Assembly: GCA_017469625.1 (NCBI GenBank)
Contig: JAFUGA010000018.1
Span: 1-64,000, forward strand
Reading direction: 5' to 3'
Length of the DNA stretch: 64,000 nt
Origin: Bacteroidales bacterium
Lineage (GTDB): Bacteria > Bacteroidota > Bacteroidia > Bacteroidales > P3
The notes under the pieces were generated by a model, which did no database searches, was not told where the DNA came from, and worked only from the letters and a program-made list of their open reading frames with translations. Positions 1,033 to 60,145 of this stretch are shown piece after piece (position 1 is the first letter of the stretch; every line of letters starts with the position of its first letter). The position numbers and the translations under genes are program-made.

Positions 1033-1084
1033 AAAAATCTAAAAAAAATTCATTTATTTAGAAAAATGTTATACCTTTGCAAAG

Positions 1085-1148
1085 TATTTTTTTGCATAAA
1101 TACAATTTCTTTAATTGTTCGGAGTGATAAACTCACTCCGTTCTTTTT
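1085..1148 (+). ncRNA. Candidate small RNA, cassette 1 of 4
   Basis: The -7 box TACCTTTG lies at 1072-1079, so a transcript should start near 1085. It ends in a perfect 8-bp hairpin, CGGAGTGA/TCACTCCG (1120-1140, loop TAAAC), followed by TTCTTTTT. The body of about 35 bases is AT-rich with no ORF. It is the first of four cassettes with a similar promoter block and the same hairpin core. Confidence 0.55.
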
Positions 1149-1214
1149 GTGTGTATAAACTAAAAAACTAAGAAAATTTCTCTTACTTTAGAAAAAAGTT
1201 GTATCTTTGCAGTA

Positions 1215-1279
1215 TAATTTTAAAATTTTAATTAAATAATACTTTTTTATACGGAGTGGAAAACATTCCGTATTTTTTT
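1215..1279 (+). ncRNA. Candidate small RNA, cassette 2 of 4
   Basis: The -7 box TATCTTTG lies at 1202-1209, preceded by the block TTACTTTAGAAAAAAGTTG. The terminator hairpin TACGGAGTG/CATTCCGTA (1250-1272, one G-U pair, loop GAAAA) is followed by seven T. The body has no ORF and is not alignable to the other cassettes. Confidence 0.6.
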
Positions 1280-1347
1280 ATATAATGCTGAAAAAATAAC
1301 CTGAGAAAATTCTTCCTACTTCAGAAAAATGTTGTATCTTTGCAACG

Positions 1348-1424
1348 TTAATATTTGTTTTCATAAAACTATTTTTTAGTAATATTTATTTGGTACGGAG
1401 AAAAACAACTCCGTATTTTTTTTT
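1348..1424 (+). ncRNA. Candidate small RNA, cassette 3 of 4
   Basis: The -7 box TATCTTTG lies at 1335-1342, with the upstream block CTACTTCAGAAAAATGTTG. The terminator TACGGAG/CTCCGTA (1394-1415, loop AAAAACAA) is followed by nine T. The body is AT-rich, about 45 bases, and non-coding. Confidence 0.6.
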
Positions 1425-1525
1425 GTGTATTATGACACTGTGAAATAAACTAATAGGAAAGGGTATTGGCAAATAAAAGTTAAGAAAAATTTCCTACTTT
1501 AGAAAAAAGTTGTATCTTTGCAGTG

Positions 1526-1605
1526 TAATTTACTTAAAATTTTTCATTCGATTAAATCCTTTGTAAAATGATTCGTACGGAACTTTTGCTCCGTACATTT
1601 TTTTT
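1526..1605 (+). ncRNA. Candidate small RNA, cassette 4 of 4
   Basis: The -7 box TATCTTTG lies at 1513-1520, with the upstream block CTACTTTAGAAAAAAGTTG nearly identical to cassette 2. The terminator GTACGGA/TCCGTAC (1575-1596, loop ACTTTTGC) is followed by a T-run at 1598-1605. It ends about 55 bases before the stop of the convergent small ORF at 1661-1810. Confidence 0.6.
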
Positions 1606-1660: not shown

Positions 1661-1810
1661 CTATAAATAAGTAAAACCAAAATAACACAAAATAGCAATA
1701 ATACCAGCCAAAACAAGCCAACAAATAACAAACTCTTTCCAATAGCGTTTGCGTTGTCTATTCTCATACTCTTCAAATTCTTTTAAATTTTTAAATTCAT
1801 AGTTATACAT
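1661..1810 (-). CDS. Small single-pass membrane protein (49 aa)
   Basis: An ATG at 1810 opens a 49-residue frame ending in TAG at 1661. It has a charged N-terminal half containing EEYENRQRKRYWKE, then one hydrophobic segment of about 21 residues (FVICWLVLAGIIAILCYFGF). Basic residues before the segment favour an N-in topology. I do not recognise the family. The size and layout would fit a type I toxin-like peptide or a small membrane regulator, but neither is shown. A hairpin followed by seven T sits directly before the start codon, so expression may depend on read-through of that hairpin. Confidence 0.4.
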   Translation of the reverse strand: MYNYEFKNLKEFEEYENRQRKRYWKEFVICWLVLAGIIAILCYFGFTYL

Positions 1811-1840
1811 AAAAAAAGCCTCCATATTTAATTATGAAGG
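1811..1840 (-). promoter_or_regulatory. Terminator-like hairpin directly upstream of the 49-aa ORF
   Basis: On the minus strand the sequence reads GCCTTCATA, a short loop, TATGGAGGC, then seven T and the ATG of the small ORF. The 3' arm contains GGAGG at Shine-Dalgarno distance. The element could terminate an upstream transcript, act as an attenuator, or hide the ribosome site. Confidence 0.4.
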
Positions 1841-2225: not shown

Positions 2226-3029
2226 TTACAGACTTTCTGCCATAAGGTCTTTGCGACCGATAAGTGAAAAAATAGTTATTGTATTATCTTCGTTTAGTAT
2301 TCTCAAGGTTCTAAGTATCTCATTTAGAGTTGAACCACTTGTTGTAACGTCATCTATAATTAGAATATTTTGTTTTCTTATAGAAGCACAAAGTTCTCTA
2401 TCTTTATCATTTGCAAATCTCAAAAAATTCATTACATACGGACGATAACGACTTTTCTTAACATCTTGGGCTATAGTAAAATAGTCTTTATGATGTATCA
2501 ATTCTATCATCTTGTCTATATTCTCTTTTACCTGTTGTTTTTGTGCAGGAGTATAACGAGGACGACCATTTTCCAAAACATCATCTAAATACTGTTGCTC
2601 ATAACTATCCATATCAAAACCAATATCTTCGGGCAAAGATTTTATAAGTTGCATTTTGTGAAGTGAAGGCTGTGCAAAACGATAGATATATCTAAGCATA
2701 TACTGATTAACTCTGCTTGAGGATTCAGGCATTATAACCAAATCGTAATTATAAAGATTTATCTGTTTATTTAGATTATCAACAGCATTTTTAATAAATT
2801 GCGTTAAATCTTCATTGCTTTGCAAGTCTTGTGTAAATTTCACATACTGAATAAATTTCGCACGTAATGAGGACTCAACATTTTTCTCAAATTCATATCC
2901 ATAATAAAAACATTTGCCAAATGCTTTTACTTGATAACCACCTCCTGTTAAGGTAATTACATCTTCTATTCCGTCCTTAGTGAAATCAAAAATAAACCTC
3001 TGCTGTTGCTCTTGGTATGTTATCCCCAT
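2226..3029 (-). CDS. Phosphoribosyltransferase-like protein
   Basis: About 267 residues. The PRPP-binding motif of type I phosphoribosyltransferases, ILIIDDVTTSGSTLNEIL, lies close to the C-terminus, as in ComF-like proteins. The rest of the chain is not typical of any purine or pyrimidine salvage enzyme, so the substrate is unknown. I chose the ATG at 3029. A longer frame starting at 3122 would place 31 residues over a clear promoter: the -7 box TATCTTTG (minus strand) sits at 3065-3058, about 30 bases before this ATG. The gene stands alone. A strong hairpin at 3140-3177 separates it from the locus upstream. Confidence 0.7.
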   Translation of the reverse strand: MGITYQEQQQRFIFDFTKDGIEDVITLTGGGYQVKAFGKCFYYGYEFEKNVESSLRAKFIQYVKFTQDLQSNEDLTQFIKNAVDNLNKQINLYNYDLVIMPESSSRVNQYMLRYIYRFAQPSLHKMQLIKSLPEDIGFDMDSYEQQYLDDVLENGRPRYTPAQKQQVKENIDKMIELIHHKDYFTIAQDVKKSRYRPYVMNFLRFANDKDRELCASIRKQNILIIDDVTTSGSTLNEILRTLRILNEDNTITIFSLIGRKDLMAESL

Positions 3030-3056
3030 AAACTTGAAATCTTTATAAACTTTGTC

Positions 3057-3109
3057 GCAAAGATACAAAGAAAATTTCAATTGGCAACAAAACAAGTGCA
3101 AAAACAGGT
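3057..3109 (-). promoter_or_regulatory. 53-bp promoter block, copy 1 (phosphoribosyltransferase gene)
   Basis: The minus strand carries TATCTTTG at 3065-3058 with TTTTGTTGCC upstream. All 53 bases recur identically at 3791-3843 in the same orientation. Confidence 0.75.
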
Positions 3110-3139
3110 TAATAAACGGCACATTTACATAATTAAGAT

Positions 3140-3790: not shown

Positions 3791-3843
3791 GCAAAGATAC
3801 AAAGAAAATTTCAATTGGCAACAAAACAAGTGCAAAAACAGGT
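3791..3843 (-). promoter_or_regulatory. 53-bp promoter block, copy 2
   Basis: Identical over 53 bases to 3057-3109. It points leftward into the structured RNA region. The -7 box TATCTTTG lies at 3799-3792 on the minus strand. Confidence 0.7.
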
Positions 3844-6395: not shown

Positions 6396-6469
6396 TCTTT
6401 CACCAAAAAACATAACCCTCTATCCCCAAACACAGAACTTTCATTCTATGCAACTCCCCCTACCCTCTC

Positions 6470-6620
6470 CACAGCACTTTGTTTTATTTTTCTAAAACAA
6501 AGAAAGAGAATTCTAAAACAAAGTTTTAGAAAATTAAAACAAAGAGATAGAATTCTAAAACTTTGTTTCGTGAAATTAGAATCAAGTTTTACGAAATTAA
6601 AACGAAGTTTTGTGGGGCTT
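6470..6620. repeat. 21-bp-period repeat array (convergent gap)
   Basis: About seven 21-base units with CAAAG or CTTTG cores in both orientations. They lie between the 3' ends of the aminotransferase and helicase genes. Confidence 0.85.
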
Positions 6621-6662: not shown

Positions 6663-8846
6663 TTATTTAGAGGTTTTGTTGGTGGTGTAGGTTTGGAGAA
6701 GTTGGAAGATTTGTTCGCCATATTTTTCCGCTGTTTTCTCCCCTATTCCTTTTATCTTCAAGAGGTCTTTCTTTGATGTTGGCAATGAATTTGTTATGCC
6801 TATCAAACCAACAGTAGATATTATGGTGTAGGCTGGTAGATTATTATCTTTGGATTCTTGTTTTCGCCATTCTTTCAACAAATTAAACAGTTCTTCATCT
6901 GCAATATCCGTCTGTGAAAGTTTGTCTTCAGTTTTCTTAGTAGTTTTTGCCTTAGTTTTATTTTGTTTAGAATTTTTAGAACTGTCATCTACAACAGAAT
7001 TCAACTCAATATCAGTGCCTTGTGCTATGAGATTATTTTTATAATTCAAATATTTAATAATGTCAAACTCTTTTTCATCAAAAAAACTTAACATCCTATG
7101 TTTCAATTCCTTTTCTATAGAAATCTTAACTATAAGTTCATTGAATTTTTTGTTATCCGCACTATTATCAAGTTCCACATCAATCAAACCAAACACGATT
7201 TTATTCACCGTATCCAACTTTTCCAAAAAGTAAATCTTTGCACTGTTTGAACGTTTTAAAATACTGTCAATCTTGTATTTATAATCCGTATTCTGTTGTT
7301 TTACCTTTGTAATGTACTCCCTATATTTCAAATCAACCTTTTCAACATCTTCAGCATATTCTTTGCACAAATCTATAACAGAAGAGGATATTGTAGGAAA
7401 AACTTTATAAATAGTTGTACTACAAAAAGTTTGCAAATTTTTTATAAGAATACTTAACTCCGAAAAATCAAATATAGAGATAATATTTTCTATAACAAAA
7501 TCTTCGTTGGCTTGTTGTAAGTCATTGTTATTAGGAGTATTAGCCAAAGCATTTTCATTGAAAAGTTTTATTCTATCATCAAATTTCACAGAAGAAGAAT
7601 TGAAGGGTTCAGACAAAAGCAAGCCATCTAAAGAACGGCAACGAGAGAGTGCAACATAAACTTGTCCGTGCGAAAATGCTTTGTTTGAGTTGATTATGGC
7701 TTTATCAAAGGTCAGCCCTTGCGATTTGTGTATGGTTATAGCCCAAGCCAATTTTACAGGAAATTGAGAAAAATAGCCCTTAACTTCAACTTTTATGCTC
7801 TTTGTTTGTTTATCCATAGAGTACTCATAGTTCTGCCAAGTGTATTTGAAAACAACGATTTCTTCTTCATTATCAGGGCATTTCACTTTTAGAAAATCAT
7901 CATCTAAAACAGTAATTACACCTATTTTTCCATTGTAATACCTTGGTTTTTCGATGTTTTCCTTGCCCGAATAGTCGTTTTTCAGAAACATAACTTGAGC
8001 CCCAACTTTCAGCCTTAGATACTCAACATTTGGAAAAGAATTCTCTGTAAACGAACCTTCAATTTCTGCTTTGTAAGTCTTTTCTTTGCCCTTTAATTCA
8101 CTGAGTTTGTTTTTGTTAATTTCATCTACTTGGCTATTATGTGAGCAAAGAACTATGTAATTCTTTGGAATATCATCTAAAATATTCGGTTTGTAGCATT
8201 CATTCAACCGTTCTATGCTTGTGGAAGAAAGATTTTTTGTTCTAATATCGTTTAAAATATTGATAAAATCAGACTCTTTTTGTCTGTAAATATTTTGTAA
8301 CGTTATAGTTATGTAGTTTGATTCAAGTAAGGCCTTTGATGAAAAAAAGTAAATATTGTTGTAGTATTGCAAAAGTATATTTTCTTCAAAATCAGTAGCA
8401 ATAGGCGGTAGTTGATTAAGGTCGCCAATGAGTAGAAGTTGCACTCCACCAAAGGGTTTGTTTCTTGCGTTTCGCCGAAACTTCCTAAGAATAACGTCTA
8501 TCTCATCAAGAATATCGCACCTTACCATAGAAATTTCGTCTATTATTATAAGGTCAAGGCTACGTATTAAATCTATTTTGTGTTTTGCAAATTTGCGAGT
8601 TTCTAATACTGCTCCTGGAAAATAAGGGTGAAAAGGTAACTGAAAAAAAGAATGTATAGTCATTCCACCTGCTTGCAAAGCCGCAACGCCTGTAGGTGCC
8701 AAAACGACAAAACGTTTTTTCAACCTTTCAGAAAGACTTTTCAAAAAGGTGGTTTTGCCTGTACCAGCCTTGCCCGTAAGAAAAATATTTCTGTTGGTTG
8801 TCTGTAAAAATTGGAATGCTAAATCAAGTTCTTTATTTTCTGACAT
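6663..8846 (-). CDS. Pif1/RecD2-like SF1 helicase with C-terminal HRDC-like domain
   Basis: 727 residues. A superfamily 1B DNA helicase core occupies about the first 430 residues: Walker A GKAGTGKTTF near residue 25, Walker B IIIDEIS near 98, GDLNQLPPIA near 143, the late motif AITIHKSQGLTFDKA, and VYVALSRCRSLDGL. The last 80 residues (LPTSKKDLLKIKGIGEKTAEKYG) form a helix-hairpin-helix/HRDC-like DNA-binding end. Such proteins unwind DNA 5' to 3' and are common single-copy genes in Bacteroidota, probably in repair and replication restart. The middle part (430-640) is low-complexity and charged. A repeat array flanks each end of the gene. Confidence 0.85.
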   Translation of the reverse strand: MSENKELDLAFQFLQTTNRNIFLTGKAGTGKTTFLKSLSERLKKRFVVLAPTGVAALQAGGMTIHSFFQLPFHPYFPGAVLETRKFAKHKIDLIRSLDLIIIDEISMVRCDILDEIDVILRKFRRNARNKPFGGVQLLLIGDLNQLPPIATDFEENILLQYYNNIYFFSSKALLESNYITITLQNIYRQKESDFINILNDIRTKNLSSTSIERLNECYKPNILDDIPKNYIVLCSHNSQVDEINKNKLSELKGKEKTYKAEIEGSFTENSFPNVEYLRLKVGAQVMFLKNDYSGKENIEKPRYYNGKIGVITVLDDDFLKVKCPDNEEEIVVFKYTWQNYEYSMDKQTKSIKVEVKGYFSQFPVKLAWAITIHKSQGLTFDKAIINSNKAFSHGQVYVALSRCRSLDGLLLSEPFNSSSVKFDDRIKLFNENALANTPNNNDLQQANEDFVIENIISIFDFSELSILIKNLQTFCSTTIYKVFPTISSSVIDLCKEYAEDVEKVDLKYREYITKVKQQNTDYKYKIDSILKRSNSAKIYFLEKLDTVNKIVFGLIDVELDNSADNKKFNELIVKISIEKELKHRMLSFFDEKEFDIIKYLNYKNNLIAQGTDIELNSVVDDSSKNSKQNKTKAKTTKKTEDKLSQTDIADEELFNLLKEWRKQESKDNNLPAYTIISTVGLIGITNSLPTSKKDLLKIKGIGEKTAEKYGEQIFQLLQTYTTNKTSK

Positions 8847-8875
8847 CTGAAAAATAAAACAAAATATTACTGTAG

Positions 8876-8960
8876 TGAAACTTTGTTTTAAAAGACTAAA
8901 ACTTTGTTTTAGAAAAATAGAACTTGATTCTAAAAAATTAAAACAAAGTTTTAGTTAAAC
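8876..8960. repeat. 21-bp-period repeat array
   Basis: About four units with cores CTTTG, CTTTG, CTTGA and CAAAG. They lie between the helicase start and the end of the transketolase operon, both on the minus strand. Confidence 0.8.
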
Positions 8961-15425: not shown

Positions 15426-15534
15426 ATTATTTTTTGTAAATTTTAACTCTTTTCTCCCCTATTTTATATCAATTTTTTACTCCAAAACCCCACCAAAAAC
15501 GATTTTTTATTTCATTATAATAAAACTTTTACTC

Positions 15535-15740
15535 TCTTTTTCTAAAACTTTATTCTACGCTCACGAAACTTTGTTTTAATTTTCTATCTCTTTGTTTTAA
15601 TTTCGTAGAACTTCGTTTTAGAATTCTATCTCTTCGTTTTAATTTCATTAAAATAAGTTTCACGCTCGCAAAACTTTGTTTCGCTCGTGTGTAACTTTGT
15701 TTTAGAAAAATAAAACGAAGTTTCGCTTTATGAAAAACTT
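15535..15740. repeat. 21-bp-period repeat array
   Basis: Roughly nine units, mostly with CTTTG or CTTCG cores, between the bcd promoter region and the 3' end of the S9 peptidase gene. The remainder of the gap (15305-15534) holds the bcd promoter, the palindrome and AT-rich DNA without ORFs. Confidence 0.85.
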
Positions 15741-22748: not shown

Positions 22749-22907
22749 AATAATCTGTCTTCAAAATTTTTGCAAAGATAGTAAATTTTTAAAACAATGT
22801 ATTAAATCTTCCTCCTAAATTTCCAAAACTTCCACCCCACTGCACAAAAAAAACTTCTCATTTTAATACCTTCACCTACCACCCTCACAAAAACAAACCC
22901 ACCCAAT

Positions 22908-23035
22908 AACAAAACTTTGTTTCGCTCTACTATAACTTTGTTTTAATTTTCTATCTCTTTGTTTTAATTTTGTAGAACTTTGTTTTAGAATTCTATTTCT
23001 TTGTTTTAGAAAATTAAAACAAAGTTTCGTGGAGA
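22908..23035. repeat. 21-bp-period repeat array
   Basis: About six units with alternating CTTTG and CAAAG cores, in the gap between the lipoprotein start and the membrane ADP-ribosyltransferase gene. The rest of 22749-23133 shows no gene. Confidence 0.85.
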
Positions 23036-33682: not shown

Positions 33683-33717
33683 AAAACTACATAAAAAAAA
33701 ATAGATAGAACTATAAC

Positions 33718-33848
33718 TCTCCACGAAACTTTGTTTTACTTTTCTAAAACAAAGAAAGAATTTTCTAAAACAAAGAGATAGAATTCTAAAACAAAGTTCT
33801 ACGAAAGCGAAATAAAGAGATAGAAAATTATAACAAAGTTTTATTTCT
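33718..33848. repeat. 21-bp-period repeat array (convergent gap)
   Basis: About six units with CTTTG and CAAAG cores between the 3' ends of mtaB and the TPR-protein gene. The remainder of 33683-34044 is AT-rich and ends in a terminator. Confidence 0.85.
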
Positions 33849-38539: not shown

Positions 38540-38651
38540 AAGTAATAATGTGTTTTATTGAACGTTAAATTTCTATGTACAAAGATACGTTATTTTTTTT
38601 TATTAACAATCTTTTCACATTCTTTTTTACAAAATTTTGTGTTTTTGTATA

Positions 38652-38762
38652 GTTTTTCTAAAACAAAGAAAGAATTTTCTATCTCTTTGTTTTAATTTTC
38701 TAAAACTTTGTTTTAGAATTCTCTTTCTTTGTTTTAGAAAATTAAAACAAAGTTTCGCTGAA
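38652..38762. repeat. 21-bp-period repeat array (divergent gap)
   Basis: About five units between the divergent starts of the TonB-domain lipoprotein and the 2-hydroxyacid dehydrogenase. The rest of 38540-38898 holds the dehydrogenase promoter (TAATTTTG at 38840-38847). Confidence 0.85.
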
Positions 38763-38839
38763 ACAGAACAAAGAAGTATTTTTCTATAATAAAATTAGAA
38801 AAAATACACTCTTTATATTCTAAAGGTGAAAATAATTTG

Positions 38840-43758: not shown

Positions 43759-43887
43759 ATCGCATTCTGTTTATTTTATTGTGCAAATGTATGACAATAT
43801 TTTATTTTAACAAAATTTTATAACACTTTTTTAGAAATAAGCCCTACTCTTCTTTATCTCTTGTCCAATTTTCTACCATTTAGTTTC

Positions 43888-44122
43888 ACACTCATGAAAC
43901 TTCGTTTTAATTTTCTAAAACAAAGAAAGAATTTTCTATCTCTTTGTTTTAATTTCGTAGAACTTGATTTTAATTTTCTAAAACAAAGAAAGAATTTTCT
44001 ATCTCTTTGTTTTAATTTCGTAGAACTTGATTCTAATTTTCTAAAACAAAGAGATAGAAAATTAAAACAAAGTTTTAGAATTCTCTTTCTTTGTTTCGCT
44101 GAATTAAAATATAATTCTATAA
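43888..44122. repeat. Longest 21-bp-period repeat array
   Basis: About ten contiguous 21-base units with cores in the order CTTCG, CAAAG, CTTTG, CTTGA, CAAAG, CTTTG, CTTGA, CAAAG, CAAAG, CTTTG. A three-unit block is duplicated. Both strands are free of stop codons across it, but no gene signals are present. Confidence 0.88.
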
Positions 44123-44505: not shown

Positions 44506-44618
44506 TTATTCATAGTTACTTTTGGGTGTGTCCGTCTTGTTTTGTCATCAAATTCCTTTATTTTACTACTGAAAAAGTCATATTTTTACTTTGATAGTAT
44601 TTATATTATATTTCAAAT

Positions 44619-44785
44619 AATCAAGAACTTACAGCATTCACCTCAAGTACTACATTAGGTAAACCTCGTAACATATCTGATAAACAAACACTTAACTATT
44701 TTTTAATTTGAATAATACAGCATATAAAAAATATAATTATCTTGTTAATCAATCTCTTACAGAATTCACCTCAAGTAAAATTTTA
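44619..44785. repeat. Two degenerate copies of the first gene's N-terminal repeat
   Basis: Copies begin at 44619 and 44747. The first shares 37 identical bases (44640-44676) with 157-193. Neither lies in an ORF. They are followed by a short 21-bp array, so the two repeat types neighbour each other here as at the left end. Confidence 0.75.
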
Positions 44786-44811
44786 TGAAAATATCCCAAA
44801 AACAAAAGTTA

Positions 44812-44880
44812 TTTGGAGTTCTCTTTGTTTTTGAAAATTAGAATCAAGTTCTGTGAAATTAAAATGAAGTTATATAGGAA
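44812..44880. repeat. Short 21-bp-period repeat array
   Basis: About three degenerate units (CTTTG, CAAGT and GAAGT cores) next to the 60-70 bp repeats. 44881-45013 shows only the SRP RNA promoter. Confidence 0.65.
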
Positions 44881-49336: not shown

Positions 49337-49475
49337 ACCTTTTACTAATTTTTACAAAACGAGTTTAATATTTCACTTTTTGTGTTTTAAAGTCTTAAAA
49401 TCTTTAATTTTTTTAACATATTGAAGTTTTTGATAGCACAAAACATACTTGTTTTTTACAAAATCTCACTTCATT

Positions 49476-49582
49476 CTCACGAAACTTTGTTTTAGATTTC
49501 TATCTCTTTGTTTTAATTTCGTAGAACTTTGTTTTAATTTTCTCTTTCTTTGTTTTATTTTTGTAAAACAAAGAAAGAGTTT
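49476..49582. repeat. 21-bp-period repeat array (convergent gap)
   Basis: About five units, four with CTTTG cores and one with CAAAG, between the ends of the radical SAM gene and the beta-barrel gene. Nothing else is seen in 49337-49704. Confidence 0.85.
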
Positions 49583-59959: not shown

Positions 59960-60145
59960 AACTCTTCTTTCACGAAACTTTGTTTTAGAATTCTATCTCT
60001 TTGTTTTAATTTCACGAAACAAAGTTTTAATTTTCTATCTCTTTGTTTTAATTTTCTAAAGCTTTGTTTTAGAATTCTATCTCTTTGTTTTAGAAAATTA
60101 GAATCAAGTTCTATTTTTCTGTTTCTTTGTTTTGGAAAAAGGGTA
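59960..60145. repeat. 21-bp-period repeat array
   Basis: About nine units, chiefly CTTTG cores with two CAAAG-type and one CAAGT, between the sigma gene start and the lipid A deacylase stop. The rest of 59818-60173 shows no gene. Confidence 0.88.

Follow-up and report, generated by a model that had tools for sequence, protein, structure and literature searches.

Four tandem promoter–terminator cassettes in a Bacteroidales genome: a candidate lineage-specific cluster of sibling small RNAs

What is encoded where four promoters, each followed by a short body and an intrinsic terminator, stand head to tail within about 570 bp? We addressed this question for positions 1034–1606 of a 64,000-nt stretch of DNA (the window; 33% GC). 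The window forms the first part of a 293,628-bp contig from a 99%-complete, AT-rich genome of 2.37 Mb, which its small SRP RNA places in the Bacteroidales. The initial annotation of this DNA had proposed a small RNA array. That reading remains the best fit to the anatomy of the locus, with its autonomous units, non-coding unstructured bodies and convergent next gene, whereas the covariation and the links to FopS and to DUF6371 genes that had accompanied it found no support. The explanation that we favour, and hold to be rather probable, is that four sibling small RNAs form a tandem cluster specific to this lineage.

Each promoter lies in one of four copies of a 57-bp direct repeat (68–84% identity to copy 2, used as the reference), which bears out the initial description of four -7 boxes preceded by a shared block. 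The copies span 1034–1090 (68%), 1164–1220 (the reference), 1297–1353 (75%) and 1475–1531 (84%), all on the forward strand, as are the bodies and terminators that follow them. A -7 box of the form TAnCTTTG is found in all four, as TACCTTTG at 1072–1079 and as TATCTTTG at 1202–1209, 1335–1342 and 1513–1520, with spacings of 130, 133 and 178 between successive boxes. The -33 element of these promoters is weak (TTTC, TTCT or TTTA, not TTTG, in our own reading of the letters). The bodies, which would form the leaders of putative sRNAs 1 to 4, occupy 1080–1119, 1210–1248, 1343–1391 and 1521–1574. A hairpin with a CGGA/TCCG core and a T-run had been noted 35–55 bases after each box, and we found one in all four cassettes, at distances of 40, 39, 49 and 54 nt from the -7 box in cassettes 1 to 4. 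The hairpins span 1120–1140, 1249–1273, 1392–1417 and 1575–1596; together with their T-runs, the terminators cover 1120–1149 (CGGAGTGA/TCACTCCG followed by TTCTTTTTG), 1249–1280 (ATACGGAGTG/CATTCCGTAT), 1392–1424 (TACGGAG/CTCCGTA) and 1575–1606 (GTACGGA/TCCGTAC).

Because the 57-bp repeat carries each promoter and the common CGGA/TCCG core is nearly private to the array, the four cassettes are, as judged from these shared parts, true paralogues. The core was present in 4/4 array hairpins versus 0/11 of the remaining terminator-like hairpins detected across the window. Genome-wide, the pattern ACGGA-N3-16-TCCGT-NNN-TTTT occurs four times; three of these occurrences are in the array, and the fourth looks, by our own inspection, like the opening of a coding frame (ATG AAG TCA ATG ACA GGT TAC GGA). 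A whole-genome search with a 23-mer promoter block (TTTAGAAAAANGTTGTATCTTTG) returned zero-mismatch copies confined to the array, and most of the matches with 2–3 mismatches outside it, where the sequence downstream was read, were ordinary gene promoters. All cassette copies found in the genome fall within 570 bp. By these counts, the array is more than a chance assembly, and the cluster is real and unusual.

We then compared the copies with one another. The promoter core is 84–100% identical and the terminator core is invariant, whereas the bodies have diverged nearly beyond recognition (four copies only). The view that the bodies are not similar held for four of the six body pairs, which were at shuffle level (p 0.3–0.6), but not for bodies 1 and 3 (z 2.6–2.9) or bodies 2 and 4 (z 2.4–2.9), for which nominal p-values, among six pairs compared, were about 0.005–0.01 relative to dinucleotide shuffles under three scoring schemes. 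A 25-nt promoter core is exactly the same in cassettes 2 and 4. The 3' flanks of cassettes 1 and 3 align (p 0.006), but so do those of cassettes 1 and 2 (p 0.0095), and the body sequences had no extended match elsewhere in the array genome. In the simplest history, a pair of cassettes A-B would have been copied as a block to give A-B-A'-B'; the evidence for this is suggestive and falls short of proof, given nominal p-values from six comparisons.

The hairpin arms had also been said to vary by paired changes, as if their structure were conserved. Counting pairs, we found four invariant pairs, two-sided changes in 2 of 11 pairs and 79.5% of cells paired. Two-sided changes were at least as high in 346 of 500 shuffles, and none of the three measures rose above the shuffled controls, while the paired cells were far above slid controls. 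Alignment folding of the two pairs of cassettes predicted no common structure either, and covariation was rejected as proof of RNA structure on these grounds. What has been kept is a core of four base pairs, together with the capacity to fold as a hairpin; structural covariation is unsupported.

Searches for related arrays were mostly pattern-based, and strongly diverged copies would be missed by them. The array was absent from the other 13 genomes of the genus. A looser pattern run on 190 family genomes gave scattered single matches with varied stems and no array, and a tandem pattern run on 393 order genomes matched the array genome only, plus one match that we read as chance. With the full cassette pattern, the array genome alone matched among 395 class genomes (three matches in the array and the coding match). 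No cassette match was found in plasmids and phages. In IMG/VR, two single-motif matches were a gene promoter and an unrelated terminator, and ten tandem-pattern matches were read as coding or gene-promoter chance matches. The exact pattern had 0 matches in a genome-contig collection from which the genome of the window may be absent. As far as searched, the array is thus restricted to one genome. The search for conserved homologues suggested by the initial annotation came back empty in the genus, family, order and class samples, plasmids, phages and IMG/VR, and therefore no between-species conservation supports a function.

Such confinement to one genome, as searched, would also be expected if neutral tandem amplification next to a mobile-element remnant had multiplied one promoter–terminator module, either an sRNA gene or a leader whose gene has been lost; transcripts would be possible, with no selected function. 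The absence of covariation above shuffles agrees with this account, as does the location of the array, which lies at the end of a contig and has as neighbours dispersed repeats and a mobile-element gene that may lack its 5' part. Neutral decay would not, however, favour the retention of promoter and terminator cores beside diverged bodies, although this contrast is small and comes from four copies. We regard neutral amplification as unlikely, while giving it real weight.

The neighbourhood of the array bears on two further accounts. An ORF open at the contig start (1–1032, forward strand) lies outside the cassettes and contains a DUF6371 domain (PF19898, E 6e-37, residues 156–292); its stop is 2 nt before the first cassette repeat. 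DUF6371 genes are known from plasmids and Tn4555-type elements, where their neighbours are an AAA/DUF3987 gene and a mobilisation gene (PMC13183296). In these elements and plasmids the gap after DUF6371 comes before the mobilisation gene, and a phage relative of the DUF6371 gene is annotated as a DNA primase/helicase. The array probably adjoins a mobile-element gene. This gene may be a remnant, either 5'-truncated or fused to repeat sequence, because its first ~100 codons consist of repeats and its similarity starts near codon 156. These codons comprise a copy of a dispersed 21-nt-period family at 18–97 and a second repeat at 123–322, which recurs at 44606–44791. The contig break at position 1 is probably a repeat break.

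The company that DUF6371 keeps in mobile elements, including the gap before the mobilisation gene and the primase/helicase annotation of the phage relative, would suit antisense or regulatory RNAs of such an element, acting in copy number or transfer control and belonging with the DUF6371 gene. Against this, we scanned the loci of DUF6371 family relatives for a box and hairpin downstream and found none in the stretches covered, so that the proposed linkage to DUF6371 genes did not hold up; the plasmid and phage searches had no match, no mobilisation gene follows the array, and a genome search gave no antisense partner. A query with the DUF6371 protein against genome-contig and viral-contig collections had no match. 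We consider RNAs of a mobile element improbable.

Beyond the array, a 54-aa ORF without a Pfam family (1661–1825, reverse strand) is convergent, and no co-directional gene follows closely. Since the next gene is convergent, the cassettes are not leaders of a downstream gene. With the first cassette 2 nt after the DUF6371 stop and a convergent gene on the other side, the cassettes could instead act as a termination or insulation block, in which stacked terminators separate transcription of the DUF6371 gene from that of the convergent genes by blocking read-through, and the promoters are incidental. A single terminator would suffice for this, though, and conservation within the cassettes is strongest in the promoter, a part for which an insulator has no use; we take this account to be very improbable.

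The claim that the bodies are without ORFs proved correct: putative transcripts 1–3 contain no ATG, and the lone ATG of putative transcript 4 (at 1568) starts a reading frame that continues across the terminator, with no closed frame in any transcript. Four genes for very short peptides, which have nothing in their favour beyond length, are highly improbable on this count. In computed folds, the bodies behaved like shuffles (z -1.25, 0.34, 0.26 and 0.91 for bodies 1 to 4), and the complete putative transcripts folded better than shuffles (z -4.4, -3.6, -1.9 and -2.0) because of the terminator hairpin. With the bodies at shuffle level and the folding gain coming from the terminator, each RNA would therefore be a single-stranded AU-rich leader followed by a terminator hairpin.

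A relation to FopS had been raised. In Bacteroides thetaiotaomicron, these paralogous sRNAs are encoded at 14 loci, have a common 41-nt seed motif, are bound by RbpB and are conserved in Bacteroidaceae; they are built of a single-stranded 5' part and a terminator, with a canonical promoter (PMC11697453). The array is like FopS in its canonical Bacteroidota promoters (sigma-ABfr type; TAnCTTTG boxes in 4/4, with a weak -33 element) and in having, by computed folds, an unstructured body and a terminator hairpin in every cassette. Unlike FopS, it has no body block common to all four copies, four of the six pairs being at shuffle level; its copies are clustered within 570 bp as opposed to dispersed, and no relatives of it were found. 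Moreover, a search of the 99%-complete array genome for an RRM_1 (PF00076, RbpB-type) protein had no match, while the same search was positive in the control Bacteroides ihuae. In Rfam, neither the gathering threshold nor a relaxed E-value limit of 5 gave a match (the presence of FopS in that Rfam copy is unconfirmed). FopS membership was rejected on the seed, the clustering and the missing RRM_1 match; the array appears to be built like FopS, and membership is not shown.

Tandem sibling sRNAs of other bacteria offer a closer likeness in arrangement. OmrA and OmrB of enterobacteria are tandem genes for RNAs of 80–90 nt that agree at their ends and differ in the middle. PrrF1 and PrrF2 of Pseudomonas aeruginosa are also in tandem; each has its own promoter and terminator, and longer RNAs could arise from them by read-through (PMC4211561). 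The array resembles OmrA/OmrB in its tandem order, alike ends and different middles, but OmrA/OmrB have two copies, proven transcripts and family-wide conservation, whereas the array has four copies in one genome and putative transcripts, and the 5' similarity among its copies falls mainly in the promoter, before the RNA begins. It shares with PrrF1/PrrF2 the tandem units with their own promoter and terminator; PrrF1/PrrF2 number two, are regulated by iron and have known targets, whereas regulation and targets in the array are putative. Among the features of a tandem sibling cluster, we found adjacent, non-coding paralogous units with their own promoter and terminator, and no conservation in related species in the genus, family, order and class samples. 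The arrangement is of a known kind, that of tandem sibling sRNAs, and the family is new and apparently an orphan.

Under the reading as four sibling small RNAs, each cassette would use its own Bacteroidota-type promoter and intrinsic terminator to yield a discrete RNA of about 65–85 nt, predicted to comprise an unstructured AU-rich 5' stretch of 40–55 nt (39–54 nt measured) and then the terminator hairpin. The cluster probably originated when cassettes were duplicated, most likely two at a time as a unit; promoters and the cores of the terminators would then have stayed alike while bodies and loops diverged. The single-stranded 5' stretch would likely base-pair with mRNAs in trans, and the siblings, on the logic of OmrA/OmrB, could be under common control via their like promoters and have different targets. 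Transcription, termination, base pairing and target divergence are thus inferred from the anatomy of the cassettes.

We propose more tentatively, as a possibility that we would not yet back, that the array is a new lineage-restricted tandem family of four sRNAs in a genome with no RRM_1-type protein found, formed by duplication of a two-sRNA unit and with diverging pairing regions, and hence an instance, independent of the RbpB system, of sRNAs being born and their targets diversifying. Bacteroidota small-RNA biology is based on few species. If true, this would be a compact natural case of sibling sRNAs arising and splitting targets, absent from all sampled relatives and set in a genome without a detected RRM_1 protein, the known Bacteroides type of RNA-binding partner.

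We also considered a conserved chromosomal site. A gene at 2226–3122 (reverse strand), with a weak phosphoribosyltransferase match, is 82–84% identical in 3 of the 13 other genus genomes, and the idea was rejected because the gene has other neighbours in these three and no array. The neighbours differ in each of the three and, in our own ORF reading, are restriction-modification-like in two, which suggests a mobile or hotspot gene.

The dispersed AT-rich family noted above, which repeats about every 21 nt (CTTTGTTTTAGAATTCTNTTTCTTTGTTTTA, also present as its reverse complement), has 225 genome matches at ≤3 mismatches (reversed control, 0); loci from other genomes and records, about 428 kb in all, gave only one loose match (≤6 mismatches). 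Further copies in the window lie at 6465–6616, 8818–8957, 15527–15729, 22894–23035, 33717–33845, 38622–38782, 43879–44096, 44823–44878, 49443–49575 and 59978–60138, and copies are also present near several contig ends. Separately, a perfect 53-bp direct repeat (GCAAAGATACAAAGAAAATTTCAATTGGCAACAAAACAAGTGCAAAAACAGGT) occurs at 3057–3109 and 3791–3843, 734 bp apart, and reads as a reversed promoter-like -7 box (CAAAGATA).
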